The notes beneath the pieces were generated by a model that did not search any database, was not told the origin of the DNA, and saw only the letters and a list, made by a program, of their open reading frames with translations. Below are positions 15,701 through 47,940 of a stretch of DNA of 64,000 nucleotides, one piece after another. Origin of the DNA: Sarcomyxa edulis (Eukaryota; Basidiomycota; Agaricomycetes; Agaricales; Mycenaceae); NCBI GenBank assembly GCA_009761415.1, contig QUOL01000004.1, forward strand, positions 1-64,000, read 5' to 3'. How positions within the stretch are numbered: position 1 is the first letter of the stretch; every line of letters starts with the position of its first letter. The translations under genes were made by a program, and so were the position numbers.

Positions 15701-18700
15701 AGTTCGCGAAGGGAGGTAGATGTCCAGTATGTACCAGTCCACTCCTGTATCGCGTTGTGATGAGGACTGCGGCGCTAGGAGTAGATGTGCTAGACTCCTA
15801 ACTATAGTTCGCCTCTAGGGGGTAAGGTGACGTTTTCTCGGAGGGGATTTTACGTAGCGAGAAATCCTAATGCCCAGTGACTTGTGTTTGGATAATGTGT
15901 TCGTAAAACGGTGGTGAGGTGGGTATGAGATGATGAGGTGTAAGGTAAGCTTCGGACTTGTAGGATCGTTCTCGGTAGGCCGTTTAGAGGCTTCGGACAG
16001 CTATAGGTTCGTTCTCGGAAAACCTACGAAGGCCTCGGACAGCTTTCGGAGAGCTGATCGATGCTTCGGACAGCTTATAATATGTCTTCGGAGAGCTATC
16101 GGGGGCTTCGGACAGCTATAAGTTCGATCTTGGAGAACCTACGAGGGCCTCGGACAGCTTTTGGTGAGCTGACCGATGCTTTGTATAGCTATAAAACGTC
16201 TTCGGAGAGCTATCGAAGGTTTCGGGCAGCTCTGAACTGATTTCGGAGAGCTTCGAGGGTTTCGGACAGCTCTGGACTGATTTCGGAGAGCTTCCTTTGT
16301 TCCGGGAGTGGTACTGCCGACTGAATCAAGTCCTTTTTCTCTTGTTTTGACCGACTCCTGTAATCGTTCCTTGTCTCGGTTTCAGAAGTATGAGAAAGAG
16401 ATAGAATTCCTATAGAGAGTAACTGGGTAGTTGGTCGATTCGGGTATGTTCCTCTGGTTCTCGTCCACACTGGGTCTATCTACCGTTCTCCATGTCCTAT
16501 CCTACTTTATATATGAATTCCTTCCCTGTCCTTGCCTGATTCTTCACCCCGTGTGCCATCCCAAGGTCCCCGAGATCTCCAATGATGAAACAGATCCGGT
16601 ATTGGTTTTGATGTGTCCGAACCTCGCTCAGTGTGAAAGGTTAGGGCCTGAGGTGTTTTCTGAAAGCGTTGCAAGGTGAATTTGTGAAGGGATGAAACAT
16701 GTCCGAGTGAGCAGGATGATGGGGAGCTTCCGATAGATTTTTCCAAGATGCGACGGCCAAAGTTGTCCGAGAAGAGTGAATTTGATGTGGGTTGCTAGGC
16801 GGAGACCTGTAGTGTCTTTGTTAGCGGGCGATACCTCGCTTACAAGTGCTGTGTCATGTGATAAACACAGAGGGAAGAATATTCCGTAGCACCACTTGGT
16901 CAGGGTGGACGGAGGTCTTAACGAGGCGTCCAGATGCATGGAAAGGTGTGAATTGAGATCACAATGTAAAGGGAATATGTCCGATTTGATAGGAAGAACA
17001 GCTCAGGGCAGTAAGCATCACGTTGGCGGTATGTCGACTGGTGGCAATGTTTTATCGGTGAAGTATCTCTCGATGAGGTCTTCTAGAGGTGAAAGGGAGC
17101 CTGCTGAAACGATTTGGGATCTGTCCGAAGGATCTAGGGGGCTACGGAGAGGTGATCGAGTACATTGGTCCTTTGGTCAGGTGAAACGACGATAGGGAAT
17201 TGGGTTCTGGCGGTAGATTTCCTTCGGAGAAGTTGTTCGTGTGTGATTTCAGGTATTCCAAAACGTTCTGAGACGTGACCGAAGGCGGGTTAGCGTTTCG
17301 TGAGTGGATGAAGAGGCCGCTTTCGGGGAGGAACCGTCAAGTAGCGGGTACTTGGTGTCTTTCAGTGTCCGGTCATTCGAAAAGTAAGTCGTTTGTGGTA
17401 ATACCACCAGTGTCTCTGTAGTTAGCTATGTCTGGGCAGTCGCATAAGAGTAGGTTGTTGTATAGTTGTCGATTCCTTGGCTGGGGATGCTGGCATCCTC
17501 ACACTTCCTCCTAACTTTTAAATATCGACCGTCCCCGGTCGATCATCCGGAGGGCAAACACAACAACGTGCCCGTGACCAAAACAGGGCAAGGACGACCG
17601 GCCAAGGACCTATAAATTCCAAGGTTAAGACAGCCAGAGCTTTCCTGAAAGCAACAAGCCAAATGGATCCCATAGCAAAAGAACTCTTCTTTACGCGCTG
17701 CCTCGATCTAGACGGGATAGATGGCGATATTACGATGGCAACTTTCCTCGGATACCTGCGTAACAATATCCGTCCCATGGTTCACCTAGTTGTTAGCTGC
17801 ATTTTTCAGGATGCAGTGGCGGACGTTCTCCTTCCGGAGTTCTCGAGTCACGGTGTATACACGTTGAGAAAGCACGTTAAAATCTTGTGCCAGCACATGG
17901 TGAGTGCGTGTGCGCCTTTCAGGGGGTCCGTGCTAATTGCGAAGGTCAAGGTATTCATGCTCAGACTTAGATGGGTACTGAAGGGGAGGTGCATGGACGA
18001 TACCACGGAGCCGTTTCCCAAGGAAGCAGTGACCGCCGTTTACCAGGTGCAGCGGTGCGTCCACGTCGTAGGGTTTTCCGGGGATCAGGACGAGGACGAG
18101 GCACATAAGATCGACGTTATCTTGTACTTCATAGAAGAATACGCCCGCCGATCGACATTCGGCGTCGCTCTCGATTACATCGAGGCGGACCCGCGTGGTC
18201 GGTTCCATGCGCATGCCGTGTTGAAGAAGCATCCATACAGCGGTCCCAGGGTACATCGAGATGGTACGATTAGTACGGACAGGGGCAACAGCCTCGAGGG
18301 GGAAGAAAATCCGGCTAACAACGAAGACGAAGGCATATCCGTCATAAGTATTGCAACGGACGACGGGGACGAAGAAATGGAGGTGGCCGAGGTAGAAAGG
18401 GCCTTGTCCGGTAAGAATTCTGACACTTTAGCGGTGCGGCAACGAGCTGATCGGAGAGGTACAGTCCAGCCACTCGCAAGCTTGGCAACACACGGGGCAT
18501 TTCGCCTGCTTTTGGAGACGTTATCCGAAGAGGAGAGGAACGGTTTGATTGGCGGGGCGGCGATTATCGAACAGGGACTAAACAATTTGTCGGGGGCATG
18601 AGGCGGCAAGAAGAGGGAAGGGTTCGGAGAGGTGATCGAGGGCATGCAGTCATCATGTACATATAAACGACGAGTCCTGTCGTGTTGAAAATCGAAATGC

Positions 18701-21700
18701 CTGCCCGCAGTATGCAAATGGCTCGCGAGAGACTCTGCGACTACTTCATGACGCTGAACGTCCCGTCCTTCATTCGACCCGTCTTCTATCCGCACGAGGG
18801 CTTCGATGGATTCTTCCGCAAACGCCTCCGTATGATGTTCGGTGTCATCCAGGCGACGCTTCCCCATAGGGTGACAGCATTTCCCGATGACACCGATAGC
18901 GTTATCGGGCAGTATACGCTGTCGAGGCGGCTTATGCGGTTTTTCGTCGAGAACGTTGTACGGGCTTCCACCGTTTTTCAGCGGGGCAACGCAGAGATAC
19001 TAAAAAAAATCCTTCTGCGCAGGAACTCATCGTTGCATACCGTCAGCGGGCCAGGACCGATGCCAACGCCGCCGAATTTAAAATTCCTTCAGAGGTATCC
19101 CGTATGATGGAGTTCAGTCTTATCGTTTATGACAAGGTCGGATTTCACGGGGACTGGGCCCTCAGCAGCGTCGGTCAGAGGAGGGAAATGCTTCAGTCAC
19201 TAAAAGATGAGGCCGACGTTAACGCTTCATTGACTGGCGGGGCAAAGGAGTATCCCGAATTTGAGGACCTGGTGTTCTGGTAAGCAGGCGCCGTCGGTCT
19301 CGTTCTTTGGGCCCCTCAGAGGGATACTAATAGTCGGAAATTCGCATTTCAGAACGCACGCGTAGCGGGGAAGCTTTCCTGGATGTGACCGAGGGGTTTT
19401 TTGTCATCGTTGGTACTTTAACGGATAAACACTCCTTTCGCGTGCCGCGTTTGAATATCTTGTAGTTTATGGAATGCCCTGTCGGTTCGGAGGGCAACGA
19501 CGGTCTCGGGCAGCCTCCCAACCTCCTTTATAAAGGGTACCGATGTCCGATGATTCCACCCGCTGTGCGCAGACATTTTGAATCGCGGACAGTTCGTAAC
19601 TCAGTCAGCGGCTCTTGATGAGAGGAAAGTTCAGAGGGAAGGCGAGTGAGATGAGAACGGAGAGAGGTTATTAATGCTTTCAGAGCTTTTCTCCTTTACA
19701 GTTTCGCTATATCGCTCAGTGGCCTGGTCATCATTTCGTTCTTCCGTAGCCTCGCCGATATGCGATGTCAGGATGATCTTCTCGTCCCGTTCAATAACTC
19801 GGCCGGCGCAAGATGCTGTTCTCTTCTTCAAGATGATGCAGTTGCATTTCTACAGCGCTCAAAGCCGACAGCCGTCAAGCGCCAGTGGCTTCATGAAGTC
19901 ATGGCCGTTTAGATCGAGGTGGCTTGCGTCCTGATCGTCGTTGTTCTTACGGCGCAGTTGAGACTGTGCGGGTTAATACGTGTGCGGGTGATGTGACCGC
20001 GATCTTGCGAAATCTTTGCGAAGGAACGAGACACGGCGAAGTGTATCAGGTGAGGCAAGGACCTGCGACAATAGTCGAAAAGATGGTCCCAGGGTAGCGG
20101 CGCGACGTGGCGGCCAGCTCGTGTTCTTTTGCATGTGGCATTCGCAATCGTTCCGTGAGCATCTATACCGAAGAACATGCGTCTTTACTGCTTCTGATAA
20201 GGCACGGTCCGGAAAATCCAACGGTTAACAGTGGCTGCACGGAGTCCGTTCGGACACCTCTTATCGGTCCGAGACGTCAGTCCTAAGTCCGATGAGGTAT
20301 AAAGAACGCCAGCTGGCGCAGGATAGCCATCGTTATTCCAGCCAAAATGTCGCATGTCGTTAGTTCATCGTTTACTCAAGCCCTCCGAGACGAGTTTTTG
20401 TCGTACGCTCATCCTCCTGAAGTTCTTGCCGGGGATTTCGCTCCTACCGAGGGCTTTACAAATTTCCTTCGGTTCCGCCTCCGCCCTATGATGGAGATTG
20501 TCGAGCGGGGGTACGCGGCTTATCTTATAACGAGTTCCCCGAGAGACACCGTTGAACCAATCATATGGAGCGAGACGAAAGGCTGGTTCCGCATCGTGTT
20601 GGATCATTTGGTAGGCGTCCGTGGTTCACTCGGTGAGCTTCGGAGTGTTAACCTTACGTCTTCTAGGATGCCATTCTACGGTTTAGGGATAGGGTGACGG
20701 CAATTGGCCGAGGAGACGAGGCCGTGGTTCCGTCAGAAGCGTTGCGCCTCGCAAGCATGGTGCAGCTATTCCTTATCCATCACGGAGTTGAGCTCGGGTA
20801 CGATGAGGATGTACTTGTGAAGAGGAAGGATTTAACGAAGGAGTTCCTTTGGTCTATCGTCCCTGTAATGCACCGAGAGGCAGTTGCCGTGGAATTTCCG
20901 GAGTTCGTGATACGGTTGGCAGGGGAGGGTACGGGCAAGTAGAAGGGGTGTCCGATAGCTGAATAGCGCGATATTTTTAGTATAAAGAGGGTGAATCAAT
21001 TCCTCCGTACGGGTCACCGCAGAGCCCATGAAAATTATGGAACCCCTACACCAAGTCCTTTTGAACACTCTTGCCCAAGAGGCAGCAACGTTCGATATCC
21101 TTGATCGTGACGGAATGATTCACTATCTCAGGTGCCTCCTGCGCCCCGCTGTCGGCCTCGTTGCCGATTTTATATTCCGTGAACTCGGGCCCGATGGCTA
21201 CTTCGTAGCTTTAACTGGTCGCGAGAGGGTTCCCTACTACTGCAATGCGCAAATCGTGTTGCTCCTCGCGGTACGTTGGTCTAAACTCGACCCTTAGCGA
21301 TCTCATTGTTTAACGGGTTTTCACTTGATCGGTAACAGGTCCATTTCCACAGCCAGTGGCAGGAGCTGAACAAGCAGGACAGGCGTTTATACATGATTCC
21401 GTCCGAGATGAATAGAACGATTAGCCATTTGCGCTTGATTTGTCGGGCTGTCCGAATTCAGCCAGCAAGCCCCATTCATTGGGAGGTCGAAGCCGTCCGA
21501 GCTCTTACCGAGCTTAGCATACGCGCCCTGGCGGCTTACGCGTCGGCTGAAGATGCCTTCGATTGGCCGGAGTACGAGAAGCCCGGGGATGCCGCGTTGG
21601 AAAGCGCGATGACCAGATCGATCCGTCTCGATCTCCTCGAAAGGGTCGTACCTAAGCGCGTTGTCGTAGTCGAGGGGGAGTCCGAAGGTGCAGGATATAG

Positions 21701-24700
21701 CGACGCGGAGGACTGGCCAGGGTCGGAGGAGGAAACGACGGAGTAAAGTAACGCTCCCAGAATCATATGCCGCTTATTGTAGTCTGCATATATAAACCTC
21801 CCCGAATTGTTTGCTCTGATCCTTAAGTCAGTAAAGTTCCATCAACGATGTCCTTTATTCTCCGTTTGTCTGCAAATCGCTTTCCCGAAAATCCCCAGGA
21901 TCCCGACCTCGAGAATGAGAGGTCTCCGACCACCATCTGGTCTCGGTCAATTCGTAGCCTCCTAGGCATCGTTCATCTCTCCGTTAATGGAAGGTGTCCG
22001 ACGGACGTTCCTCTCGAGGAAAGGCTCTGGGTCAGGACCCTCCTCACCCGGATCGTCAATTACGTAGTAAGCGGCTCGCTTGTTTTTCCTTCATCGTTCC
22101 TCTTTCAACATCGTCCGTCCAGCATCAAGCTATGAAGCTCCGAGCCTCCGAAGCCATTAAATCAGGTTCTTGGGATACCATTCCAATTCCCGCTCAAGCC
22201 ACCACTACCGTCGCCATGCTCGAGTTCTTTCTGAAGAACTTTGGTTTCGAGGGGGACTACGTTGCGGTCAACGTTAGGAACGTTGGGTATCTTTTGTCGT
22301 CGGTGAAGAGCGAGATGGTTGCCCAGGCACGTTTTACATATTTCTTGGTTCTCATTCTTCGTTGATTTATTTCTTTTCGTCTTTTTCTAGGTCGGATACG
22401 TCGGAACTGCCCTGGATTTCGATGGATTTGAGTCGTCCGATACGTACAACGTGTACGGCGTGCTCCCCGAAATGAAGCAGCAGCAAGTTAACGACCTGCT
22501 CAGATTGCGGGCGGCTTTCGTTCCCAATCCTGTTCTTCCCGCTCCTCAATATCCTCTTGTCCCCTTCGTCGCGAGGTTTCCCGTGAAAGAGGGCTTTGAA
22601 GAGGTCCGTCTTCACGGAGACGTTCCCGATCCTCGTCTCGGAGGTCTCCACCAAGTTCATTTCGGCCCTGGAGCTTTCGGACAGGTAGATCCTCGGAACG
22701 GTGCGACGCGTGGGAGAGGTCGCGGAGGGGCAAGGGCTAATCGTCGAGGAGCTGGAGCGGTACCTGATACTACCATTCTGTAGACCGTCCGATGAGTTTC
22801 CGATTCCTTGTCTCTTGTAAAATAAATGCCTGATACCAGGCGCATAATTCGTTCATAATTTTGCATAGTGTGAGACCCAGCGTCTCGGTCTCCTCGTAAA
22901 TCTGTAAAACGTCGTGAGTTGCATACTTTTATCATATCAGCGCATAATTGGGTTCGGTCTGCGTCAGTAGATCCGCTGGCCAGCCAGATCTACCGTCTCC
23001 GAACCCCGCATAGTCGTTTTCTTCCAATTTCTTTCGATCGTTTGTCGTCCGTGTCTTTTCGCAGTATTTCGTCACTGTGTACAGGAAAGCCGTCGCTCTC
23101 TATCCGTTCCGTTACGAGGTTATAAGCCCCATGCGCCAACCATACTATTCTTGCTTGTCTCGTATTTCGGTTCTTCGTATTTCTTCCTTTCGTGTTCTTC
23201 CAATTTAACGTTCGTATTTTGACTTCCAGGTTTTTATTGCTATTAGTGCGTAGCAGCATCCTTTTCCTCTTCTCCTCATAGACCGCCATCCTTCTTTTTG
23301 TGAGCGGTTGTTTACCAAAGACCTTATCGTTTCGGCAATCGATTCGGCTTCTTTTCCACGTGGCTGGAGATACCCGGGCTGAGATTCTTTTTAGGAGAGG
23401 TCTTTTATTCTCGAAACCTCTTTTATTGACGGTATCTTCTTCGTCCATCAGGGTTCTTAGATATGTCGTCCACCACTGGTGCTTTTTCAGGAAAGTTTAA
23501 TAGGTCGATCACGGGTTCGCGATATTCCTTCATCGTCCATAGTTGGTTTGATAACAAGCTTTTTGTTCAGATATTCTGGATGGCACCGTCGCACAGCCTC
23601 TCTTGTCCGCCCTTTCTGGTGATACTGATTTGCGAACCCTCTCCGCTGCTCAGCGAGGCGCCCTTATATCGACTAGACGAATTCCCGGTTCGCTTTTCGG
23701 TGTTTACAGGCAACTAATGCCTGATCGTATCACGAAGTCGTCGAAAGAATTGAGGTCCATGATGTTCACCCTTTTATCGATCGGTTATCCTAGGGCTCCG
23801 CCAGCCTATTTCCACAATTTTCCGGAATTGAATTCGTCCGTTATAAAGTTCATTAATAACTTTCCCTACGTTCCCGACTTTCTTCTCGAGGCCATTTCGT
23901 ATAATCTTCCGCGCACCGTGGCCGTTGCTAATTTCGATCCTGAGTTTTCGAGCGACGAGTTGGCCGATTCTTGTAAGTACTCTTCTCGCCCCCGTAAGCC
24001 GGTCATTTAAAGTTGCCCGCGTCCGAATGGTCGTAGCTGCTAGCGATGTCGAGCCCCAAAGTGACTCTCCGGGGAGGGAACGGACCAGCCAACCTACCCG
24101 TCGGTTGAGAAAAGTTACCGGCTTCCCCGTACCCAAAATCACCGTCCTCCCAGCAGTTGAAGCCTATCGAACACTTTCTTCAGCGAAACAGGATAGAGCA
24201 TCCAGAAAGAACCGCCTCTTTTTTATCCGAGCCAGAGTCAGTCTTTCCCCGTATTTCATCCTATGTTTTTCAAGTCATTGACCCCATCTTTTACCCTCTT
24301 CAAGGACTACCGATGTTCCGAATGTATTCGCAATGACGTTTCTTGCCCCGGTTTCAGGTCTCAAGCATGCGACTTCTGTGAAGGGAAGCAGTCCGCATGC
24401 AATCTCGTAGGTGGAGAGGATAACCTCAGTGAGCCTTCTCCCTGTAGTGACGGACACAACTGCAACCATAGAAATTCTTTCCCCTTTGTAGGCGAATTAA
24501 TGGCTCGCGCTACCGGCTGCATCAAGGTCCTAAAAAGGCCCGAAGTCGTTTCCAGCGAGGCGTCCGGTGAGATTAAGACATCGGCGAACCCGACCGCTAG
24601 TTCGTCAGCCCTTCCCCTCCTTCGTAACGTAGCTTCTGGCTCCCTTTCGCGTATCGACCCCAGACGTCCAGTCATTCGCCTGTCTCCGGAGCACCATCCT

Positions 24701-27700
24701 CGGCCACGATCTGATTCCAGTATCGCACGCAGCGAGAAAATGGATGCCATCGTTCGCAATTCTAGGTCCCGTCTTCTCGACGGTGCCAGTGATTCGTCCG
24801 CTTTTGGCGTGCTAAGCCCCGTTGTCGTTGATCATATGACCCCGATTATTGATCAAGTAATGAAGGAAATTGGTTTGGCGTATCGCGTCTTGATCGAGGA
24901 TGCTATCGATGAGGCGGACGAGGAGGAGATTGCTATGGCGTTCTTGTAGCACAAGTCCACCTTCTCGTATTTTCTTGTTTGTTTTTGATAACCCGTCGCA
25001 GATTTCCGACTTTGTACGCCCCCCCCCCTTTTCTCGGTGGACACCACCTTTAATGTAGAAATATGAATCGATTTCTTGTTAAATAAGCCAGATGAATATA
25101 AGGTGAAATTTAAGAAGTCTTTATCGTTGCCTCGCCGGCCCTACGTCCTCTTTTGCCCCGTTTGTTCTGGCGTTAACGTCGTCCCTTCGTGTTCCGGTTT
25201 CCTGGGGAACTGCCAAAGTCTCGTCCTGTATGTTCCTGGTAGCGAGTCGTCCCCTGGCTCCACCAAGCTGTATTCGTCTGGTGTATCGTCGTCCGCCATC
25301 TCGTTCAGCTGTTTCGTAGTTTTACCTACTAAAGTTGTGACTTGGATAGTGATTTCGTTCCTCCTGAAGTAGGGTACCAATCGGTGCGCCGCAAAGCGAT
25401 GTTCCGCGATCGCACCATTGACTTCGGAGAGTATATAACTCCCCGACTTCGTTTGTCGGACAACAACCATCGGACCTATATATCGGGGCTTCATCTTGTT
25501 ATTCAGCTCCTTCTCGATCCTTGTGTTTCTGATGAGTACAAGCCTGCCCGGGGCAAACTTGAAGTCGTAAATCTGTCCTTCATATTAAATTTAAGGTCCT
25601 CGATAAGCCCCGTAGTCGTGTCATGCTGGCTATTGGCCGATTCCATAGTGATTTTATGGTCCGGCCTCAAGTGTATTCCGAGTTTCTGCCAAAGTCCCTT
25701 GTTCATGGCAATTATTTCCGACCCTCCGTCCAACACACATTCGACCTTTTCATCCTCGATAGTCGGGTAGATTACTCTGAGTTTTTCAATGGATGAGCCC
25801 GTGAGGAGAATTTCTTCGTCCGGTCCGTTCGGATTTTCGTACCGAAGGATATAACTGGAGTCCGGTTCGTCGATGTTGTCCGGATTAATCGACTCGAGTC
25901 GTCCAACCGTCGGAATCCTTTTAGTAGACACCAGTTCCTTGTACTGTTTTCTGACGTCTAGGCTAAGCGAAAGTAATTCTCTTTGTGAGATGGATATCTG
26001 AGTATCAAGTGATCGGTTCAAGACCCTTTTTGCCAACTCCGGATCTTCTATCGGCGTTGAGAATTTATACTGCGGACCAGTTTGTACCTGCTTCCTTCCT
26101 TCGGTCGCATCCTTTTCGAATTCTACCGTTTTCCTTTTGGGAGGAACTTGGCTGACCGGATCGTCAGGGAGCGGCTGAGGTCGTCCGGGGGGTCCTTTCC
26201 TTCGCATAGCAGGTACAGGTTTCTCCGTAGGTTCCAGCGGTTTGCCATTACGGGTTTTTCTTGCTTGTTCGTTTGCTAGGACTTCTCCGATATCTTCTTC
26301 TTCTTCCTCGATCTCCTCGATCCTTGACTCTTTGTAGTATGAACTAGAAGTTTCTCCGGACGATGCGAACCACATGGTAGAGGCATGGGGAGGTGCATCG
26401 CGTACAAAGTTGACGCCATTTATAATCGACCCCGGATACATTTCATGGTACCTGTTGATTCTGGCAGCCAAGTTGATTCCTTCTATATTTGAAGGAACCC
26501 ATGCTCCGTTCGGAAGTACGACTTTTCCGTTCATGTTTCGCATGCATTTCCCGTCTCTGATAAATTCGGCGACCTTCGGACAATCTCGAATGAAGTGAGA
26601 CGTGTCCGAGCAGAACGCACAAACCGAGCCGTTCCCTGGACCGTTTTGAGTTCTTCGGACAGGGGATCGATCGAGGAATGGGTTAGGTGCCCTTCCCTGC
26701 GCCGGGACATAGCCTTGGTAACGGTTATTGTATGACATGGCCTGGTTTGCCCCCATGTTTGATAACGTGGCTGCCAACGTACTCATGCTCGCTGCCAACT
26801 CCCTATTAAGCGCCTTTATTTCCCTCGACATTTCGTCTATTTCTTGTTTAACTACCGGATCCATTCCAGTCGTCTGTGTTCCGCTGTAAAGAACCTGTCC
26901 TCCTAGGATATGTTGGCCTTCCTTGTAGAGGTCATCGATCATATATGGTTCGTCGAGTTCCTGGTCGGGCTTCTTGATTTTTAGTCGGGCCATTAGCTGG
27001 ACCAGAAACTGCGGGTGGAGTCCTTTTACGTAGAGGCGATTCTCTTCTTTAGCAGAGATCTTGTTTTGGTCTTTGAGATGATGCGATATCCTGGTGAAAG
27101 AACGATGGTATTTTCCAAAGTCCGATTTGGTGTTAATCGGTATTGCTGCTTCTTTTGCAAGCAAGACCTCTAGATCATTGAGCGTATATTTCTTTTTCTC
27201 GTCTGATCCGGGATAAAGCTTCCGGACTTCGGATTTGAAGGCATCCCAGTCTTTTGCGGTAACCACCTTCCAAAGCGATTCGTCTTCCGCCCCAAGGTAG
27301 TACCTAGCCATGTCGATTTTCTCTTTATCCGACGCTTTCCCAGCCGCCGTGCATACTTGGTCTATGTCTTCGAAATACCTTGTAACAGATTCGTCGAGAC
27401 CATCAAATTTTGGAGCATCCCTGCTGGTCCGGGTGGGCGGCGGTCTTGACGTCATTGTCGGAAGGTTTTTCTGTATTCGGGGTTGGGATATTCGAGGGTT
27501 TATGCGATTCGATGGTAACGGTATCTGAGACGGAGGAGGTGGCTGAGTCTGCGTTTGGTCTTGTGTTGAAGTTTGGCGGGAAGGGATGGATAGGATTCGA
27601 GACTCCAATTGGAGGTGAGATAAGTGTTCGGCTGGTAAACTGTTCGACGGTTCGTTTCCCTGGGCTAGGCTAACCGAGTCTTCCGAGGGCGTAAGGGAGG

Positions 27701-30401
27701 CTTCTGTTGAAATAGTGTCCGATTCAACGGAACGTGGGAGCAATTCTTCGTCTGAGGTATCTATGTTGGAAGGAGGTGTTTGGGATGGCAACCAATCAAG
27801 ATTTATTGATGGTACGTCCGATAGCGGTGACGATTCGGGCGGAGTCGTTTCTTCGGAAAGGTCGCTTTGTGGATATTCGACGGATAAATGTGGTATACGG
27901 GAAGTTTGAGAGAAGGCTTGAAGCTCTGCTTCAGCTAAACGAGTTTGGGCTCGGGTAACTCGTCTAGTAGACACCTTTTAAATCCCCTCGCGGTGGGCTC
28001 CAGTTGTGATGAGGACTGCGGCGCTAGGAGTAGATGTGCTAGACTCCTAACTATAGTTCGCCTCTAGGGGGTAAGGTGACGTTTTCTCGGAGGGGATTTT
28101 ACGTAGCGAGAAATCCTAATGCCCAGTGACTTGTGTTTGGATAATGTGTTCGTAAAACGGTGGTGAGGTGGGTATGAGATGATGAGGTGTAAGGTAAGCT
28201 TCGGACTTGTAGGATCGTTCTCGGTAGGCCGTTTAGAGGCTTCGGACAGCTATAGGTTCGTTCTCGGAAAACCTACGAAGGCCTCGGACAGCTTTCGGAG
28301 AGCTGATCGATGCTTCGGACAGCTTATAATATGTCTTCGGAGAGCTATCGGGGGCTTCGGACAGCTATAAGTTCGATCTTGGAGAACCTACGAGGGCCTC
28401 GGACAGCTTTTGGTGAGCTGACCGATGCTTTGTATAGCTATAAAACGTCTTCGGAGAGCTATCGAAGGTTTCGGGCAGCTCTGAACTGATTTCGGAGAGC
28501 TTCGAGGGTTTCGGACAGCTCTGGACTGATTTCGGAGAGCTTCCTTTGTTCCGGGAGTGGTACTGCCGACTGAATCAAGTCCTTTTTCTCTTGTTTTGAC
28601 CGACTCCTGTAATCGTTCCTTGTCTCGGTTTCAGAAGTATGAGAAAGAGATAGAATTCCTATAGAGAGTAACTGGGTAGTTGGTCGATTCGGGTATGTTC
28701 CTCTGGTTCTCGTCCACACTGGGTCTATCTACCGTTCTCCATGTCCTATCCTACTTTATATATGAATTCCTTCCCTGTCCTTGCCTGATTCTTCACCCCG
28801 TGTGCCATCCCAAGGTCCCCGAGATCTCCAATGATGAAACAGATCCGGTATTGGTTTTGATGTGTCCGAACCTCGCTCAGTGTGAAAGGTTAGGGCCTGA
28901 GGTGTTTTCTGAAAGCGTTGCAAGGTGAATTTGTGAAGGGATGAAACATGTCCGAGTGAGCAGGATGATGGGGAGCTTCCGATAGATTTTTCCAAGATGC
29001 GACGGCCAAAGTTGTCCGAGAAGAGTGAATTTGATGTGGGTTGCTAGGCGGAGACCTGTAGTGTCTTTGTTAGCGGGCGATACCTCGCTTACAAGTGCTG
29101 TGTCATGTGATAAACACAGAGGGAAGAATATTCCGTAGCACCACTTGGTCAGGGTGGACGGAGGTCTTAACGAGGCGTCCAGATGCATGGAAAGGTGTGA
29201 ATTGAGATCACAATGTAAAGGGAATATGTCCGATTTGATAGGAAGAACAGCTCAGGGCAGTAAGCATCACGTTGGCGGTATGTCGACTGGTGGCAATGTT
29301 TTATCGGTGAAGTATCTCTCGATGAGGTCTTCTAGAGGTGAAAGGGAGCCTGCTGAAACGATTTGGGATCTGTCCGAAGGATCTAGGGGGCTACGGAGAG
29401 GTGATCGAGTACATTGGTCCTTTGGTCAGGTGAAACGACGATAGGGAATTGGGTTCTGGCGGTAGATTTCCTTCGGAGAAGTTGTTCGTGTGTGATTTCA
29501 GGTATTCCAAAACGTTCTGAGACGTGACCGAAGGCGGGTTAGCGTTTCGTGAGTGGATGAAGAGGCCGCTTTCGGGGAGGAACCGTCAAGTAGCGGGTAC
29601 TTGGTGTCTTTCAGTGTCCGGTCATTCGAAAAGTAAGTCGTTTGTGGTAATACCACCAGTGTCTCTGTAGTTAGCTATGTCTGGGCAGTCGCATAAGAGT
29701 AGGTTGTTGTATAGTTGTCGATTCCTTGGCTGGGGATGCTGGCATCCTCACAGCGTGAGTGGATTAACTCGATATCAGGTAGATCGAGTCGTACCTGTAT
29801 ATTATGCAATGGCAGTCTACTGTGCCGACTCAGACAACACGCAACGCATTCTTGACTCTCACCGCACTCCTTACATCTGACGAGACGAATACCAGCTGAA
29901 GCTGAGGTCGAAGACGAAGGGCGATACGGAGTACCGCAGGTTGCGCAGCTGGGGTGAGTGGTGTTGTCCGCGAGACCTTCTCGCCGTAAGACTTCTTTGA
30001 GAAACGTGGGCACGCAAGCTCGCCAGAGCAGCATGGGGTCATCCTATAGTAGATTAGTTCAAGCATACCTTGATGGGAAGATGCACAACACGTACTGAAC
30101 TGATATATCGACGACGCTTTTCTTTTGGTCCCAATGGATCCTGCGGTTCTTCATCGTAGAATAGGTCTTCTTGGTCAACGTGGGCCTGTTCGGGAGGACC
30201 TTCTTGAGGAGCCCAGGTAGCGTACGCATCGTCCAGGTCAGAGGGGGCGACTCTTCGTTTTTTTTTACTGATGTTGACTTGTTGCCCGAAAAGTCGGCTG
30301 CCGTTTGTGTTGGGATAAAGGAGACGATCTGCAGAGAACAATTCGGCGGAAGGTTCATCGTATGAGATGTAGATTTCAGAGGCTGGTTTACTGCCACGCA
30401 T
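12703..30401 (-). CDS. KDZ (Kyakuja-Dileera-Zisupton) transposase, split by element 1
   Basis: ATG at 30401, stop at 12703. Traced exons: 30401-30096, 30043-29795, 15744-15373, 15318-15134, 15083-14927, 14868-14720, 14665-14271, then further exons to a last one ending at 12703. Every junction I traced keeps frame. The N-terminal half has the CxC2 cysteine cluster (CATC, RCKEC, CVACC, RHSRLPLH, later CGCDRSDY) and the segment RNAWYPATTIDPHTCATYE. The transposase core shows SYDIACQY, PVWHAAAHERSCQ, GVGTADGEAIERIW and TKEMNPGARQD, all family hallmarks. The C-terminal region has the conserved WIWT and REEMKRVL segments. The 14-kb element 1 sits in intron 2; removing it with one copy of the GCGT duplication gives a normal 49-nt intron (GTACGA...ATACAG). 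The coding sequence therefore looks undamaged, but splicing across 14 kb is doubtful. Confidence 0.85.
15991..16293. repeat. Array of TTCGGA(C/G)AGCT motifs in the LTR
   Basis: About twelve copies of TTCGGACAGCT or TTCGGAGAGCT, with variants, occur every 15-40 bp, for instance at 15991, 16065, 16085, 16107, 16200, 16242, 16261 and 16282. The same array is in the other three LTRs. Downstream of the (-) TATA box it would be transcribed in the leader of the element RNA. Confidence 0.8.
16506..16513 (-). promoter_or_regulatory. TATA box of the LTR promoter
   Basis: TATATAAA read on (-), about 990 nt inside the LTR in sense direction. Equivalent sites are at 28755-28762, 38740-38747 and 48691-48698. 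It would place most of the LTR upstream as U3. Confidence 0.55.
17504..17519 (-). other. Polypurine tract of element 1
   Basis: Read on (-), AAAAGTTAGGAGGAAG directly precedes the TGTGAGG start of the 3' LTR, the expected place for the plus-strand primer. Element 2 has the same tract at 39738-39753. Confidence 0.8.
17611..17616 (+). promoter_or_regulatory. TATA box of cargo gene a
   Basis: TATAAA 47 nt before the ATG at 17663. Counterpart in element 2 at 39845. Confidence 0.65.
17663..18601 (+). CDS. Cargo gene a (element 1), unknown paralogous family
   Basis: Antisense to the retrotransposon. Either a 312-aa single exon or, more likely, 297 aa after removal of a phase-0, 45-nt intron (17900-17944, GTGAGT...GAAG), because four neighbouring cargo genes have a phase-0 intron at the matching place. 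Exon 1 carries the family pattern FLGYLRNNIRPMVHLVV; exon 2 begins a helical region with PFPKE and GFSGDQD, the counterparts of the (I/P)PSE and GxxGD motifs in the others. The long C-terminal part is acidic (about residues 190-250) and without recognised domain. No signal peptide or membrane segment. No function is known to me. Confidence 0.6.
   Translation: MDPIAKELFFTRCLDLDGIDGDITMATFLGYLRNNIRPMVHLVVSCIFQDAVADVLLPEFSSHGVYTLRKHVKILCQHMVSACAPFRGSVLIAKVKVFMLRLRWVLKGRCMDDTTEPFPKEAVTAVYQVQRCVHVVGFSGDQDEDEAHKIDVILYFIEEYARRSTFGVALDYIEADPRGRFHAHAVLKKHPYSGPRVHRDGTISTDRGNSLEGEENPANNEDEGISVISIATDDGDEEMEVAEVERALSGKNSDTLAVRQRADRRGTVQPLASLATHGAFRLLLETLSEEERNGLIGGAAIIEQGLNNLSGA
18662..18667 (+). promoter_or_regulatory. 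TATA box of cargo gene b
   Basis: TATAAA 35 nt before the ATG at 18697. Just upstream (18625-18640) is CGGAGAGGTGATCGAG, an exact 16-nt copy of LTR sequence at 17145-17160. Confidence 0.65.
18697..19283 (+). CDS. Cargo gene b (element 1), unknown paralogous family
   Basis: Exons 18697-18957 and 19023-19283, 87 codons each including the stop; 173 aa. The 65-nt phase-0 intron has GTACGG donor, an ACTAA branch-point-like word before a poly-A run, and GCGCAG acceptor. Exon 1 has GFFRKRLRMMFGVIQ, exon 2 has KIPSEVSRMMEF and GFHGDW, matching the neighbours' motifs. The poly-A run is 8 A here and 7 A in element 2; because it lies in the intron neither copy is frameshifted. Function unknown. Confidence 0.65.
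19529..19534 (+). promoter_or_regulatory. TATA box of degenerate cargo cassette
   Basis: TATAAA in the same setting as the other cargo promoters, upstream of the reading frames at 19565-19912. Confidence 0.5.
19565..19912 (+). pseudogene. Degenerate sixth cargo cassette (element 1)
   Basis: Downstream of a TATA box, an open stretch to 19645 joins in frame to 19702-19912 through a 56-nt intron (GTGAGA...TTACAG), giving segments such as SFFRSLADMRCQDDLL and KRQWLHEVMAV before a TAG. No ATG opens this frame: upstream it meets TGA. It may be a pseudogene or may have an unrecognised first exon. It does not show the PSE motif of the other cassettes, so family membership is open. The region from 19913 to the next TATA has no recognised content. 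Counterpart in element 2: 41798-42145. Confidence 0.4.
20298..20303 (+). promoter_or_regulatory. TATA box of cargo gene c
   Basis: TATAAA 44 nt before the ATG at 20347, preceded by GTCCGATGAGG; a GTCCGAT word also precedes the TATA of gene d. Confidence 0.65.
20347..20942 (+). CDS. Cargo gene c (element 1), unknown paralogous family
   Basis: Exons 20347-20610 (88 codons) and 20667-20942 (92 codons with stop), phase-0 intron of 56 nt; 179 aa. Exon 1 has the clearest version of the family pattern, GFTNFLRFRLRPMMEIVE; exon 2 has VVPSEALRLASMVQLF and ELGYDED. Predicted soluble, mostly helical. Function unknown. Confidence 0.65.
20981..20986 (+). promoter_or_regulatory. TATA box of cargo gene d
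   Basis: TATAAA 42 nt before the ATG at 21028, with GTCCGAT about 30 nt upstream. Confidence 0.65.
21028..21746 (+). CDS. Cargo gene d (element 1), unknown paralogous family
   Basis: Exons 21028-21270 and 21339-21746 with a 68-nt phase-0 intron; 216 aa. Family pattern in exon 1: MIHYLRCLLRPAVGLVAD; in exon 2: MIPSEMNRTISHLRLI. The last 40 residues are acidic (EGESEGAGYSDAEDWPGSEE). Antisense to the retrotransposon. Function unknown. Confidence 0.65.
21791..21796 (+). promoter_or_regulatory. TATA box of cargo gene e
   Basis: TATAAA within CATATATAAACC, 52 nt before the ATG at 21848. Confidence 0.65.
21848..22783 (+). CDS. Cargo gene e (element 1), paralogous family with RG-rich tail
   Basis: Exons 21848-22066, 22123-22326 and 22391-22783; 271 aa. 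The first intron is phase 0 like those of the other cassettes. The second appears to be a GC-AG intron (CAG|GCACGT...TTCTAG, 22327-22390): reading through it meets a stop, while splicing continues the frame. Exon 1 has SRSIRSLLGIVHLS; exon 2 has IPIPAQATTTVAMLEFF and GFEGDY. The C-terminus is basic and rich in RG (RGRGRGGARANRRG), as in RNA-binding tails. Function unknown. Confidence 0.6.
23463..24949 (+). CDS. Zn2Cys6-like cargo protein (element 1)
   Basis: Exons ending at 23972, then 24013-24236 and 24305-24949, fit one frame. The 5' end is unresolved: an ATG at 23463 may belong to a first exon, with an acceptor near 23571, but the phase does not close. The third exon opens with a cysteine cluster C-x2-C-x6-C-x7-C-x2-C-x6-C (starting RCSEC), the spacing of a fungal Zn(II)2Cys6 DNA-binding domain, though here in the middle of the protein. 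A conserved N-terminal region (TRRIPG...PDFLLEAISYNLP) and C-terminal region (SRLLDGASDSSAFGVLSPVV) match the homologue in element 2 at 45833-47590. A DNA-binding role is inferred only. Confidence 0.6.
25141..25571 (-). pseudogene. Integrase C-terminus relic (pol 3' end)
   Basis: Read on (-), the frame DFKFAPGRLVLIRN...KPRYIGPMVVVRQT...HRLVPYF is the end of a Ty3/Gypsy integrase with a GPY/F-like module. It lies in a different frame from gag and begins abruptly at about 25570, where the protease region stops. Reverse transcriptase, RNase H and the integrase zinc and catalytic domains are missing. The tail after VPYF is acidic and ends at 25141. Confidence 0.8.
25503..27974 (-). CDS. gag: Gag-protease polyprotein of element 1, 3' truncated
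   Basis: 823 codons from ATG at 27974, 30 nt inside the 5' LTR border. Order: a Ser/Pro-rich N-terminus, a capsid-like region from DAPKFDGL (about 187) to about 360, a CCHC zinc knuckle CAFCSDTSHFIRDC (about 451), a basic and acidic linker, and an aspartic protease-like segment with LDGGSEIIAMN (about 748). After KFNMKD the frame runs into pol-tail DNA out of frame and stops, because an internal deletion joined protease to integrase end. Gag would form particles; with intact capsid and knuckle it could still package RNA, but all enzymes for copying would have to come from elsewhere. The protease is incomplete at its C-terminal side. Confidence 0.85.
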   Translation of the reverse strand: MSTRRVTRAQTRLAEAELQAFSQTSRIPHLSVEYPQSDLSEETTPPESSPLSDVPSINLDWLPSQTPPSNIDTSDEELLPRSVESDTISTEASLTPSEDSVSLAQGNEPSNSLPAEHLSHLQLESRILSIPSRQTSTQDQTQTQPPPPSQIPLPSNRINPRISQPRIQKNLPTMTSRPPPTRTSRDAPKFDGLDESVTRYFEDIDQVCTAAGKASDKEKIDMARYYLGAEDESLWKVVTAKDWDAFKSEVRKLYPGSDEKKKYTLNDLEVLLAKEAAIPINTKSDFGKYHRSFTRISHHLKDQNKISAKEENRLYVKGLHPQFLVQLMARLKIKKPDQELDEPYMIDDLYKEGQHILGGQVLYSGTQTTGMDPVVKQEIDEMSREIKALNRELAASMSTLAATLSNMGANQAMSYNNRYQGYVPAQGRAPNPFLDRSPVRRTQNGPGNGSVCAFCSDTSHFIRDCPKVAEFIRDGKCMRNMNGKVVLPNGAWVPSNIEGINLAARINRYHEMYPGSIINGVNFVRDAPPHASTMWFASSGETSSSYYKESRIEEIEEEEEDIGEVLANEQARKTRNGKPLEPTEKPVPAMRRKGPPGRPQPLPDDPVSQVPPKRKTVEFEKDATEGRKQVQTGPQYKFSTPIEDPELAKRVLNRSLDTQISISQRELLSLSLDVRKQYKELVSTKRIPTVGRLESINPDNIDEPDSSYILRYENPNGPDEEILLTGSSIEKLRVIYPTIEDEKVECVLDGGSEIIAMNKGLWQKLGIHLRPDHKITMESANSQHDTTTGLIEDLKFNMKDRFTTSSLPRAGLYSSETQGSRRS
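27984..28002 (-). other. Primer-binding site of element 1
   Basis: On (-), two bases (AC) after the LTR end TCACA, TGGAGCCCACCGCGAGGGG could pair with the 3' end of a tRNA ending GGTGGGC-T-CCA. tRNA identity not determined. Element 2 has the same sequence at 47920-47938. Confidence 0.8.
28005..29752 (-). repeat. Element 1, 5' LTR (copy B)
   Basis: 1748 bp, same sequence as copy A as far as I can compare; TATA at 28755-28762 on (-). Flanked on the right by the GCGT duplication and then the KDZ intron. Confidence 0.95.
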
Positions 30402-37867: not shown

Positions 37868-37989
37868 ACAACGGCAATAACAACAACGTCGACACCCACA
37901 ACGGCGACATCGCTAACAGCAGGGACAACAACGTCGACACCCACAACGGCGACACGCGCAACGTCGACACCCACAACGGCGACACGCGC
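37868..37989. repeat. NVDTHNGDTR minisatellite, left part
   Basis: 30-bp units (AACGTCGACACCCACAACGG plus CGACACGCGC) in the coding frame, broken by element 2 and continued at 49689-49930. Confidence 0.85.
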
Positions 37990-39737
37990 TGTGATGAGGA
38001 CTGCGGCGCTAGGAGTAGATGTGCTAGACTCCTAACTATAGTTCGCCTCTAGGGGGTAAGGTGACGTTTTCTCGGAGGGGATTTTACGTAGCGAGAAATC
38101 CTAATGCCCAGTGACTTGTGTTTGGATAATGTGTTCGTAAAACGGTGGTGAGGTGGGTATGAGATGATGAGGTGTAAGGTAAGCTTCGGACTTGTAGGAT
38201 CGTTCTCGGTAGGCCGTTTAGAGGCTTCGGACAGCTATAGGTTCGTTCTCGGAAAACCTACGAAGGCCTCGGACAGCTTTCGGAGAGCTGATCGATGCTT
38301 CGGACAGCTTATAATATGTCTTCGGAGAGCTATCGGGGGCTTCGGACAGCTATAAGTTCGATCTTGGAGAACCTACGAGGGCCTCGGACAGCTTTTGGTG
38401 AGCTGACCGATGCTTTGTATAGCTATAAAACGTCTTCGGAGAGCTATCGAAGGTTTCGGGCAGCTCTGAACTGATTTCGGAGAGCTTCGAGGGTTTCGGA
38501 CAGCTCTGGACTGATTTCGGAGAGCTTCCTTTGTTCCGGGAGTGGTACTGCCGACTGAATCAAGTCCTTTTTCTCTTGTTTTGACCGACTCCTGTAATCG
38601 TTCCTTGTCTCGGTTTCAGAAGTATGAGAAAGAGATAGAATTCCTATAGAGAGTAACTGGGTAGTTGGTCGATTCGGGTATGTTCCTCTGGTTCTCGTCC
38701 ACACTGGGTCTATCTACCGTTCTCCATGTCCTATCCTACTTTATATATGAATTCCTTCCCTGTCCTTGCCTGATTCTTCACCCCGTGTGCCATCCCAAGG
38801 TCCCCGAGATCTCCAATGATGAAACAGATCCGGTATTGGTTTTGATGTGTCCGAACCTCGCTCAGTGTGAAAGGTTAGGGCCTGAGGTGTTTTCTGAAAG
38901 CGTTGCAAGGTGAATTTGTGAAGGGATGAAACATGTCCGAGTGAGCAGGATGATGGGGAGCTTCCGATAGATTTTTCCAAGATGCGACGGCCAAAGTTGT
39001 CCGAGAAGAGTGAATTTGATGTGGGTTGCTAGGCGGAGACCTGTAGTGTCTTTGTTAGCGGGCGATACCTCGCTTACAAGTGCTGTGTCATGTGATAAAC
39101 ACAGAGGGAAGAATATTCCGTAGCACCACTTGGTCAGGGTGGACGGAGGTCTTAACGAGGCGTCCAGATGCATGGAAAGGTGTGAATTGAGATCACAATG
39201 TAAAGGGAATATGTCCGATTTGATAGGAAGAACAGCTCAGGGCAGTAAGCATCACGTTGGCGGTATGTCGACTGGTGGCAATGTTTTATCGGTGAAGTAT
39301 CTCTCGATGAGGTCTTCTAGAGGTGAAAGGGAGCCTGCTGAAACGATTTGGGATCTGTCCGAAGGATCTAGGGGGCTACGGAGAGGTGATCGAGTACATT
39401 GGTCCTTTGGTCAGGTGAAACGACGATAGGGAATTGGGTTCTGGCGGTAGATTTCCTTCGGAGAAGTTGTTCGTGTGTGATTTCAGGTATTCCAAAACGT
39501 TCTGAGACGTGACCGAAGGCGGGTTAGCGTTTCGTGAGTGGATGAAGAGGCCGCTTTCGGGGAGGAACCGTCAAGTAGCGGGTACTTGGTGTCTTTCAGT
39601 GTCCGGTCATTCGAAAAGTAAGTCGTTTGTGGTAATACCACCAGTGTCTCTGTAGTTAGCTATGTCTGGGCAGTCGCATAAGAGTAGGTTGTTGTATAGT
39701 TGTCGATTCCTTGGCTGGGGATGCTGGCATCCTCACA
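37990..39737 (-). repeat. Element 2, 3' LTR (copy C)
   Basis: 1748 bp, same as copy A. Polypurine tract follows at 39738-39753 on (-). Confidence 0.95.
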
Positions 39738-39896: not shown

Positions 39897-40835
39897 ATGG
39901 ATCCCATAGCAAAAGAACTCTTCTTTACGCGCTGCCTCGATCTAGACGGGATAGATGGCGATATTACGATGGCAACTTTCCTCGGATACCTGCGTAACAA
40001 TATCCGTCCCATGGTTCACCTAGTTGTTAGCTGCATTTTTCAGGATGCAGTGGCGGACGTTCTCCTTCCGGAGTTCTCGAGTCACGGTGTATACACGTTG
40101 AGAAAGCACGTTAAAATCTTGTGCCAGCACATGGTGAGTGCGTGTGCGCCTTTCAGGGGGTCCGTGCTAATTGCGAAGGTCAAGGTATTCATGCTCAGAC
40201 TTAGATGGGTACTGAAGGGGAGGTGCATGGACGATACCACGGAGCCGTTTCCCAAGGAAGCAGTGACCGCCGTTTACCAGGTGCAGCGGTGCGTCCACGT
40301 CGTAGGGTTTTCCGGGGATCAGGACGAGGACGAGGCACATAAGATCGACGTTATCTTGTACTTCATAGAAGAATACGCCCGCCGATCGACATTCGGCGTC
40401 GCTCTCGATTACATCGAGGCGGACCCGCGTGGTCGGTTCCATGCGCATGCCGTGTTGAAGAAGCATCCATACAGCGGTCCCAGGGTACATCGAGATGGTA
40501 CGATTAGTACGGACAGGGGCAACAGCCTCGAGGGGGAAGAAAATCCGGCTAACAACGAAGACGAAGGCATATCCGTCATAAGTATTGCAACGGACGACGG
40601 GGACGAAGAAATGGAGGTGGCCGAGGTAGAAAGGGCCTTGTCCGGTAAGAATTCTGACACTTTAGCGGTGCGGCAACGAGCTGATCGGAGAGGTACAGTC
40701 CAGCCACTCGCAAGCTTGGCAACACACGGGGCATTTCGCCTGCTTTTGGAGACGTTATCCGAAGAGGAGAGGAACGGTTTGATTGGCGGGGCGGCGATTA
40801 TCGAACAGGGACTAAACAATTTGTCGGGGGCATGA
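39897..40835 (+). CDS. Cargo gene a (element 2)
   Basis: Same protein as the gene at 17663-18601, with the same TATA (39845-39850) and candidate 45-nt intron. No difference seen. Confidence 0.6.
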   Translation: MDPIAKELFFTRCLDLDGIDGDITMATFLGYLRNNIRPMVHLVVSCIFQDAVADVLLPEFSSHGVYTLRKHVKILCQHMVSACAPFRGSVLIAKVKVFMLRLRWVLKGRCMDDTTEPFPKEAVTAVYQVQRCVHVVGFSGDQDEDEAHKIDVILYFIEEYARRSTFGVALDYIEADPRGRFHAHAVLKKHPYSGPRVHRDGTISTDRGNSLEGEENPANNEDEGISVISIATDDGDEEMEVAEVERALSGKNSDTLAVRQRADRRGTVQPLASLATHGAFRLLLETLSEEERNGLIGGAAIIEQGLNNLSGA

Positions 40836-40930
40836 GGCGGCAAGAAGAGGGAAGGGTTCGGAGAGGTGATCGAGGGCATGCAGTCATCATGTACATATAA
40901 ACGACGAGTCCTGTCGTGTTGAAAATCGAA

Positions 40931-41516
40931 ATGCCTGCCCGCAGTATGCAAATGGCTCGCGAGAGACTCTGCGACTACTTCATGACGCTGAACGTCCCGT
41001 CCTTCATTCGACCCGTCTTCTATCCGCACGAGGGCTTCGATGGATTCTTCCGCAAACGCCTCCGTATGATGTTCGGTGTCATCCAGGCGACGCTTCCCCA
41101 TAGGGTGACAGCATTTCCCGATGACACCGATAGCGTTATCGGGCAGTATACGCTGTCGAGGCGGCTTATGCGGTTTTTCGTCGAGAACGTTGTACGGGCT
41201 TCCACCGTTTTTCAGCGGGGCAACGCAGAGATACTAAAAAAATCCTTCTGCGCAGGAACTCATCGTTGCATACCGTCAGCGGGCCAGGACCGATGCCAAC
41301 GCCGCCGAATTTAAAATTCCTTCAGAGGTATCCCGTATGATGGAGTTCAGTCTTATCGTTTATGACAAGGTCGGATTTCACGGGGACTGGGCCCTCAGCA
41401 GCGTCGGTCAGAGGAGGGAAATGCTTCAGTCACTAAAAGATGAGGCCGACGTTAACGCTTCATTGACTGGCGGGGCAAAGGAGTATCCCGAATTTGAGGA
41501 CCTGGTGTTCTGGTAA
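40931..41516 (+). CDS. Cargo gene b (element 2)
   Basis: Exons 40931-41191 and 41256-41516; intron 64 nt, one A shorter than in element 1. Encoded protein is the same as that of 18697-19283. Confidence 0.65.
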
Positions 41517-41797
41517 GCAGGCGCCGTCGGTCTCGTTCTTTGGGCCCCTCAGAGGGATACTAATAGTCGGAAATTCGCATTTCAGAACGCACGCGTAGCG
41601 GGGAAGCTTTCCTGGATGTGACCGAGGGGTTTTTTGTCATCGTTGGTACTTTAACGGATAAACACTCCTTTCGCGTGCCGCGTTTGAATATCTTGTAGTT
41701 TATGGAATGCCCTGTCGGTTCGGAGGGCAACGACGGTCTCGGGCAGCCTCCCAACCTCCTTTATAAAGGGTACCGATGTCCGATGATTCCACCCGCT

Positions 41798-42145
41798 GTG
41801 CGCAGACATTTTGAATCGCGGACAGTTCGTAACTCAGTCAGCGGCTCTTGATGAGAGGAAAGTTCAGAGGGAAGGCGAGTGAGATGAGAACGGAGAGAGG
41901 TTATTAATGCTTTCAGAGCTTTTCTCCTTTACAGTTTCGCTATATCGCTCAGTGGCCTGGTCATCATTTCGTTCTTCCGTAGCCTCGCCGATATGCGATG
42001 TCAGGATGATCTTCTCGTCCCGTTCAATAACTCGGCCGGCGCAAGATGCTGTTCTCTTCTTCAAGATGATGCAGTTGCATTTCTACAGCGCTCAAAGCCG
42101 ACAGCCGTCAAGCGCCAGTGGCTTCATGAAGTCATGGCCGTTTAG
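41798..42145 (+). pseudogene. Degenerate cargo cassette (element 2)
   Basis: Copy of 19565-19912, with TATA at 41762-41767. The same absence of an ATG in frame argues that the state was inherited before both insertions, or that a first exon is missed. Confidence 0.4.
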
Positions 42146-42579
42146 ATCGAGGTGGCTTGCGTCCTGATCGTCGTTGTTCTTACGGCGCAGTTGAGACTGT
42201 GCGGGTTAATACGTGTGCGGGTGATGTGACCGCGATCTTGCGAAATCTTTGCGAAGGAACGAGACACGGCGAAGTGTATCAGGTGAGGCAAGGACCTGCG
42301 ACAATAGTCGAAAAGATGGTCCCAGGGTAGCGGCGCGACGTGGCGGCCAGCTCGTGTTCTTTTGCATGTGGCATTCGCAATCGTTCCGTGAGCATCTATA
42401 CCGAAGAACATGCGTCTTTACTGCTTCTGATAAGGCACGGTCCGGAAAATCCAACGGTTAACAGTGGCTGCACGGAGTCCGTTCGGACACCTCTTATCGG
42501 TCCGAGACGTCAGTCCTAAGTCCGATGAGGTATAAAGAACGCCAGCTGGCGCAGGATAGCCATCGTTATTCCAGCCAAA

Positions 42580-43175: not shown

Positions 43176-43260
43176 AAGGGGTGTCCGATAGCTGAATAGC
43201 GCGATATTTTTAGTATAAAGAGGGTGAATCAATTCCTCCGTACGGGTCACCGCAGAGCCC

Positions 43261-47938: not shown

Positions 47939-47940
47939 GT

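Follow-up and report, generated by a model that had tools for sequence, protein, structure and literature searches.

Our analysis of a 64,000-bp window of the basidiomycete Sarcomyxa edulis (contig QUOL01000004.1, here C34, positions 1-64000; the assembly comprises 35.6 Mb in 40 contigs) suggests that a lineage of Ty3/Gypsy long terminal repeat (LTR) retrotransposons has long carried a set of accessory genes, six to seven in number, that lie between pol and the 3' LTR and are antisense to gag-pol. We rather favour the view that these genes form a selected accessory module of the element, probably with a regulatory function. The case for selection on the module is strong, and the regulatory role is put forward with moderate confidence. 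The label 'cargo', under which the initial annotation of this window described the block, may mislead, because what the block resembles is an accessory module of long standing under selection, rather than a recent capture.

The window contains two LTR elements, element 1 at 15756-29752 and element 2 at 37990-49688 (Table 1), and their different target-site duplications, GCGT and GCGC, agree with the earlier view that they are independent insertions. Element 1 has, as described in the initial annotation, six plus-strand genes opposite to gag (g1 to g5 and a sixth, g6A) between a remnant of pol and the 3' LTR. The remnant, previously noted as a pol relic, is the C-terminus of the integrase; comparison with 17.5-kb copies on contigs C1 and C40 places a deletion of about 3.5 kb of pol core at a 10-bp junction (25575-25584). 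Element 2 was thought to have the same arrangement, which is true of its antisense genes but not of gag or pol: its interior (39738-47940), searched for gag and pol similarity, gave no match better than E 1. Both LTRs and a primer-site sequence identical to that of element 1 are retained, as in a non-autonomous derivative, and without gag-pol the genes of element 2 are antisense solely to the polarity of its LTRs and primer site. The two elements have in common an internal stretch of 5,605 bp, in which a single mismatch and a single gap occur and after which they diverge abruptly; over the LTR plus this 5.6 kb they are 99.96% identical. That both carry the same block is thus right for g1 to g5, but the sixth gene of element 2 (g6B) is a different version, only 35% identical to g6A over the first shared exon. 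Element 2 is flanked by a similar 15-bp minisatellite on both sides (37792-37989 and 49660-49958), the right-hand one encoding a GETHR pentapeptide repeat, and its insertion therefore seems to have hit a host gene that contains repeats.

The block moves with the element throughout the genome, as had been proposed from the two insertions alone. Its first 1.1 kb has 30 matches, of which one is truncated at a contig end and the other 29 are full-length; all 29 full g1 copies directly adjoin an LTR end (with a 220-bp query across the junction, 40 of 86 candidates were listed, and the 29 listed matches that span it fall at these same places). At the other end, the junction between primer site and LTR is spanned in 31 of the 40 listed matches (103 candidates). 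Matching 4-bp target duplications were found in 13 of the 14 elements with both ends read, in six sequences (GCGT 2, GCGC 2, ACGC 3, CCGT 4, ACGG 1 and CCGC 1, the duplication on contig C38 being the outer pair of two joined copies). All 13 have the form NCGN, and further single ends, including two of a second family described below, also have CG at the site; the integration preference is CpG-centred, with 4-bp duplications. Neither an ordinary gene cluster outside LTRs, for which g3 to g5 were used as queries, nor a segmental duplication confined to the two loci of the window was seen, most insertions having flanks of their own. LTR pairs are 99.9-100% identical within the eight elements compared, indicating that the insertions are young, and copies differ from each other by about 1-3%. 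The 17.5-kb copies on C1 and C40 have a gag-protease open reading frame (ORF) of 878 aa and a pol frame that is open over all 1,123 and 1,149 codons examined, respectively, bounded by the slice ends. In the C40 copy RT_RNaseH precedes Integrase_H2C2 (Pfam), with no separate Pfam hit for the reverse transcriptase core. This order, gag-protease then pol with the integrase last (PR-RT-RH-INT), is that of Ty3/Gypsy elements, and is complete in the 17.5-kb copies, partial in element 1 and absent from element 2; the paired TG..CA LTRs and target duplications likewise conform to this class. The copy on C12 has a stop in gag. General Pfam scans turned up no Starship tyrosine-recombinase captain, although no search aimed at captains was made.

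Each of g1 to g5 is interrupted by a phase-0 intron at one shared position in a common domain of about 160 residues; the five genes encode small, mostly related and probably helical proteins. The description of five intron-bearing paralogues is upheld by BLASTP for g1, g2, g3 and g5 (best E about 1e-10 to 1e-4), whereas g4 is joined to them by intron position and motifs only, as is an extra gene of the second family. The g1 intron is frame-open in element 1 and hence less certain than the others; it is 52 nt long in one copy, and the g1 of the second family has a 51-nt intron with a stop. For the g1 acceptor, comparison with the second family led to 17950 in place of 17944; the latter position, which adds two codons, underlies copy extraction and the pN/pS, dN/dS and private-change analyses (ratios of non-synonymous to synonymous change). 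In element 1 every one of g1 to g5 has a TATAAA box 47-57 bp upstream of its ATG (background, 8 TATAWA start positions on the plus strand in 7.5 kb), and the boxes are kept in seven aligned copies, except before g5 of C12. The module genes would be transcribed separately, in the direction opposite to that of gag-pol. In element 1 a 1-kb gap (19284-20346) with an orphan TATAAA at 19529 separates g2 from g3, where the second family has its extra paralogue; a search of this gap for a relic of that gene found none (best E 0.40, on the wrong strand).

The second family came to light through eight weak additional matches to g3, which led to loci on C23 and C34. Its ends share their first 24 bases with the family-1 LTR, and its plus strand carries, in order, g1, g2, the extra paralogue, g3, g4, g5 and a zinc-motif gene, followed by pol on the minus strand (of its copies, that on C23 is cut off by the contig end, and that on C34 is interrupted by another repeat). 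The genes g1 to g5 are reciprocal best matches between the families, at 31-56% over the common domain, with 30-59% amino-acid identity in tblastn pieces and intron 1 at the same place, while the gene in the position of g6 has the cysteine spacing CX2CX8CX7CX2CX6C (read by eye). Unlike these genes, at 30-59%, the integrase C-terminus is nearly identical between families (by eye). The first 882 bp of the family-2 LTR are also found on either side of the C12 copy, as two occurrences on the same strand with 18.5 kb between them. An LTR-like sequence at G000:C38:1065983-1066590, 76% identical to the family-2 LTR, perhaps represents a third LTR family. In protein searches of the genome with g3, g4 and g5, all sequences listed are assignable to the two element families; for g5 they comprise 31 family-1 third exons, eight family-2 places and one split family-2-like place on C5. 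The search for host copies covered these three genes at the protein level and g1 at the DNA level. In a database of 5.8 billion proteins, a profile of the common domain found four proteins, none of them named: one is 77% identical to g1 (P0001), two are nearest to g4 of family 2, and the fourth is nearest to the extra paralogue. An integrase query of the same database gave 131 matches, the named ones from mushrooms and their allies (Leucocoprinus, Mycena, Armillaria, Pleurotus, Hypsizygus, Pisolithus and Heterobasidion). Mushroom elements are thus present in this database, and the antisense genes must be rarer, more diverged or hidden by their introns, although the conserved integrase is a weak control for fast-evolving proteins.

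Signs of purifying selection come from eleven fetched copies out of about 30, five of type A, which have gag-pol, and six of type B, which do not (g1 and g2 from ten copies); long copies were fetched first, so the sample favours copies with insertions. All six genes are uninterrupted, as far as read, in six of the eleven: element 1, C1 and C40a of type A, and element 2, C38a and C11 of type B. The extracted exons of g1 to g5 contain zero internal stops and zero small indels, a few exon matches being end-trimmed by locus borders or mismatches and that of C2 g5 by an insertion. The pN/pS ratios of g1 to g5 are 0.10, 0.01, 0.07, 0.17 and 0.11 (10-11 copies), and in seven aligned copies no indel starts in 3,396 coding columns, against 9 in 1,984 non-coding ones. 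Among the five A copies, dN/dS is 0.10 for the antisense genes, 0.057 for gag and 0.04 for pol (three copies). Separated by type, the ratio for g1 to g5 is 0.112 in the five A copies and 0.094 in the six B copies; changes private to a single B copy number 33 synonymous and 14 non-synonymous (ratio 0.13), and those private to a single A copy 14 and 14 (0.31), with C12 contributing 12 of the 14 non-synonymous ones. The two-copy comparison within family 2 is too shallow for selection, and its g2 row is void, the exon 2 boundary being out of frame (7 stops).

The sixth gene behaves differently from its neighbours. Zn2Cys6 proteins are recognized by the pattern CX2CX6CX5-12CX2CX6-8C, and the CX2CX6CX7CX2CX6C present in both main versions, g6A and g6B, fits this pattern. 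A protein-database search with g6B returned none of 7,997 scored candidates at E <= 0.01, and an AlphaFold2 model of its first exon has a mean pLDDT (predicted local distance difference test) of 41.5. In the nine B-type g6 modelled of eleven fetched (C2, which spans two loci, and the interrupted C40b were left out, and the C34b row is without its last two bases), all four exons are open, the splice sites are conserved, and every exon indel has a length divisible by three. Their dS is 0.61 and dN/dS 0.15, with 0.01 in the zinc window, the most constrained window of the gene, while the DNA just upstream differs by 2-4% in copies covering it. A-type g6 falls into two groups, I and II, with dS of 0.66-0.72 and a ratio of 0.10-0.14 between them (eight copies); shifted frames give a ratio above 1.4, a control showing that the chosen frame is coding. 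Synonymous divergence in g6 is about tenfold higher than in g1 to g5 (pS 0.04-0.06) and gag (0.04). For such old g6 versions to sit on a backbone that is young and common to the copies, recombination between copies is required, perhaps along with selection that favours variety.

The LTRs themselves offer a possible site of action for g6. The element 1 LTR has an array of 11 TCGGA[C/G]AGCT motifs within about 300 bp, all on one strand, where 100 dinucleotide shuffles gave a mean of 0.01, and the array recurs in all four window LTRs; the family-2 LTR (a 2,042-bp slice from its start) has a different array, with 10 copies of CGATCGGC on both strands and 0.15 expected. Zn2Cys6 proteins typically bind CGG triplets, which makes g6 the first candidate to bind the LTR arrays. 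Most likely, g6 would bind DNA and regulate the element, for instance via the motif arrays in the element's own LTRs, and recombination would exchange the divergent g6 versions between copies. B-type copies, three of the six fetched having six open genes, LTRs and primer site, are presumably copied in trans by the gag-pol of A-type copies. It is an established principle, used in antisense-intron retrotransposition reporters, that introns antisense to the retrotransposed transcript pass through reverse transcription. The introns of the module would survive in this way because they are antisense to the genomic RNA, so that the sense transcript is not spliced at them.

Several observations weigh against this interpretation. 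Arrays are very similar across widely different g6 versions, which speaks against allele-specific binding: 14 of 15 LTR slices hold 9-11 TCGGA[C/G]AGCT motifs whatever their g6, and the C13 slice 6, although the two elements with group II g6A (C1 and C13) have the fewest exact motifs, 9 and 6, versus 10-11 elsewhere. The PF00172 score of g6B is 16.8 bits against a cut-off of 21, and g6A has no PF00172 match, so that g6 is called Zn2Cys6-like only; the family-2 gene in its place has a weak similarity to g6B (E 0.002). No family was found for g1 to g5 by Pfam, on single proteins or on 11 domain sequences; a solved-structure profile search gave a single match, at E 1.1, and the AlphaFold2 model of g1 (mean pLDDT 51.5), mostly helical, gave no fold assignment. 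A TATA box precedes just two of seven family-2 starts tested and neither g6A nor g6B, and the database relative P0001 is also in-frame through the g1 intron. One gene is cut by a large insertion in four of the eleven fetched copies (g5 in C2; g6 in C12, C13 and C40b), C38b is without g1 and g2, and private changes in g1 to g5 of C12 are 12 non-synonymous to 6 synonymous. Part of the constraint in B copies may also be owed to recombination with A copies.

The least probable of the alternatives, refuted for the family overall, is the segmental duplication of an ordinary gene cluster lying between LTRs by chance. Some end duplication does occur: the C25 element (LTR ends near 95784 and 113285) has mismatched duplications, ACGC and CCGT, and shares one flank with the C7 copy near 15948, a product of recombination or duplication near contig ends. 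Most flanks differ, the 13 matching target duplications lie at separate sites, and LTR pairs are nearly identical within elements while the copies differ by 1-3%. It is improbable, though less so, that the block is what is left of another mobile element, or of a virus, after its insertion in an ancestral LTR element, and has been passively carried since. Its compactness, its own TATA boxes, its lack of likeness to known families and the cut or lost genes of some copies would all suit such an origin; purifying selection and conservation in two families oppose passive carriage at present, and are silent on ultimate origin. We also think it unlikely that the genes serve the host, as fungal genes (for recognition or competition, for instance) captured by an LTR element and kept for host benefit. 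Constraint in copies without gag-pol, and a variety of g6 resembling that of recognition genes, can be read in this way, but the searches with g3, g4 and g5 gave no copy outside the two element families, the shared order in two diverged families suggests that the genes have long resided in the element, and about 30 near-identical copies would be odd for a host-benefit set.

Two further proposals concern g6, the first of them being a special form of the accessory-module explanation. It is possible, if doubtful, that g6 and its flanks form an immunity-type region, in which each version represses elements of its own version but not those of others, and rare versions are favoured. This would account for the island of old divergence in both types, set in little-diverged g1 to g5 and gag with only slightly differing upstream DNA, and for the zinc cluster being the most constrained window. 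The LTR arrays have not diverged to match, save for the lower exact counts in the two group II elements, and old versions could persist by chance through recombination. More speculatively still, the whole may be a phage-like modular retroelement, with a conserved antisense block, an immunity-type g6 in many old interchangeable versions, and gag-pol-free satellites, consisting of the regulatory block only, that spread in trans.

Retrotransposons are usually described as gag-pol machines that shed extra DNA or carry it passively; here the additional part roughly equals gag-pol in size, bears introns and is constrained nearly like gag and pol, also where gag-pol is absent. The interiors of large retrotransposon derivatives (LARDs) are usually taken as non-coding, and HBZ of human T-cell leukaemia virus type 1 (HTLV-1) is a single gene transcribed from the 3' LTR. 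B-type elements resemble LARDs, as presented in the available text of PMC3411680, in having LTRs and a primer site without gag-pol, but their interior consists of six constrained genes. HBZ, an antisense regulatory gene in a retroelement (mentioned in PMC11963269), is comparable by its antisense regulatory arrangement alone, being one gene and not a block. The closest fungal precedent is that of Boty-like elements of Botrytis and Sclerotinia, LTR elements with the antisense gene brtn (PMC7264820, in the text available; the study itself, Zhao et al., 2011, is cited by title in PMC8365987). There, too, a gene antisense to gag-pol lies between pol and the 3' LTR, but as far as these sources go Boty has one additional gene, whereas here there are six to seven, most with introns and most related, and gag-pol-free copies with the block.

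Among plant elements, Retand, Grande, RIRE2 and PvRetro13 have antisense additional ORFs, for which nuclear or DNA-binding roles have been proposed, and some Retand clusters are non-autonomous (accessible text of PMC11963269 and PMC7264820). They resemble the present elements in that a long region separates pol from the 3' LTR, and antisense ORFs occupy it in most of their copies or clusters; the TRP28- and SMC-type domains reported for them were not found in the genes described here, and introns are unmentioned in the main text of these two papers, while most genes here bear them. Ogre and Burro are likewise large Ty3/Gypsy elements with extra coding capacity, in ORFs that the available text of PMC6431247 does not describe as antisense, in contrast to those reported here. 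In the literature searched, which leaves most subscription papers outside it, no report of a multi-gene intron-bearing antisense block, or of gag-pol-free copies keeping one, came to light. With a single antisense gene already known in fungi from Boty, novelty is limited to the multi-gene, intron-bearing block, and to this extent the earlier statement that such an arrangement was not known from fungi can apply. The role of antisense genes in LTR elements, open for plant elements, becomes directly testable here, in a system that separates element-level selection, trans-mobilisation and regulator diversity, and that suggests how a retroelement can keep intron-bearing genes, namely on the antisense strand.

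Table 1. Coordinates of features of elements 1 and 2 in the window.
Feature	Position	Strand	Details
Element 1 LTR (3' LTR in gag sense)	15756..17503	-	1748 bp, TG..CA ends
Element 1 LTR (5' LTR in gag sense)	28005..29752	-	100% identical to 15756-17503
Element 1 target-site duplication GCGT	left 15752..15755, right 29753-29756		
Motif array, 11 TCGGA[C/G]AGCT, element 1 LTR	15993..16292	+	repeated in all four window LTRs
Polypurine-tract-like purine-rich stretch adjoining element 1 3' LTR	17504..17520	-	read by eye
g1	17663..18601	+	exons 17663-17899, 17951-18601; intron 51 nt
g2	18718..19283	+	exons 18718-18957, 19023-19283
g3	20347..20942	+	exons 20347-20610, 20667-20942
g4	21028..21746	+	exons 21028-21270, 21339-21746
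g5	21848..22783	+	exons 21848-22066, 22123-22326, 22391-22783; second intron GC-AG
g6A	23464..24949 (start approximate)	+	coding exons include 23570-23972, a zinc exon that begins at 24305 and a final exon at about 24500-24949; first exon and some boundaries provisional
pol C-terminus remnant (integrase end), element 1	25144..25584	-	weak SH3_Tf2-1 match, below cut-off
gag-protease ORF, element 1	25503..27977	-	Pfam DUF4100 and gag-asp_proteas, both below curated cut-off
Primer-binding-site-like sequence, element 1	27985..28002	-	TGGAGCCCACCG.. (gag sense); read by eye
Element 2 LTR	37990..39737	-	1748 bp, 100% identical to 47941-49688
Element 2 LTR	47941..49688	-	pair of 37990-39737
Element 2 target-site duplication GCGC	left 37986..37989, right 49689-49692		
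Element 2 g1-g5	39897..45016	+	g1 39897-40835, g2 40952-41516, g3 42580-43175, g4 43261-43979, g5 44081-45016
g6B (element 2)	45833..47590	+	524 aa; exons 45833-46325, 46388-46713, 46768-47098, 47166-47590
Primer-binding-site-like sequence, element 2	about 47921-47938		same as element 1; by eye

Outside the two elements, the window also contains a Helitron at 1859-7693 on the plus strand, whose 1,944-aa ORF has Helitron_like_N, DUF6570 and PIF1 helicase domains, and a HEAT-repeat ORF at 55410-56468 on the minus strand.

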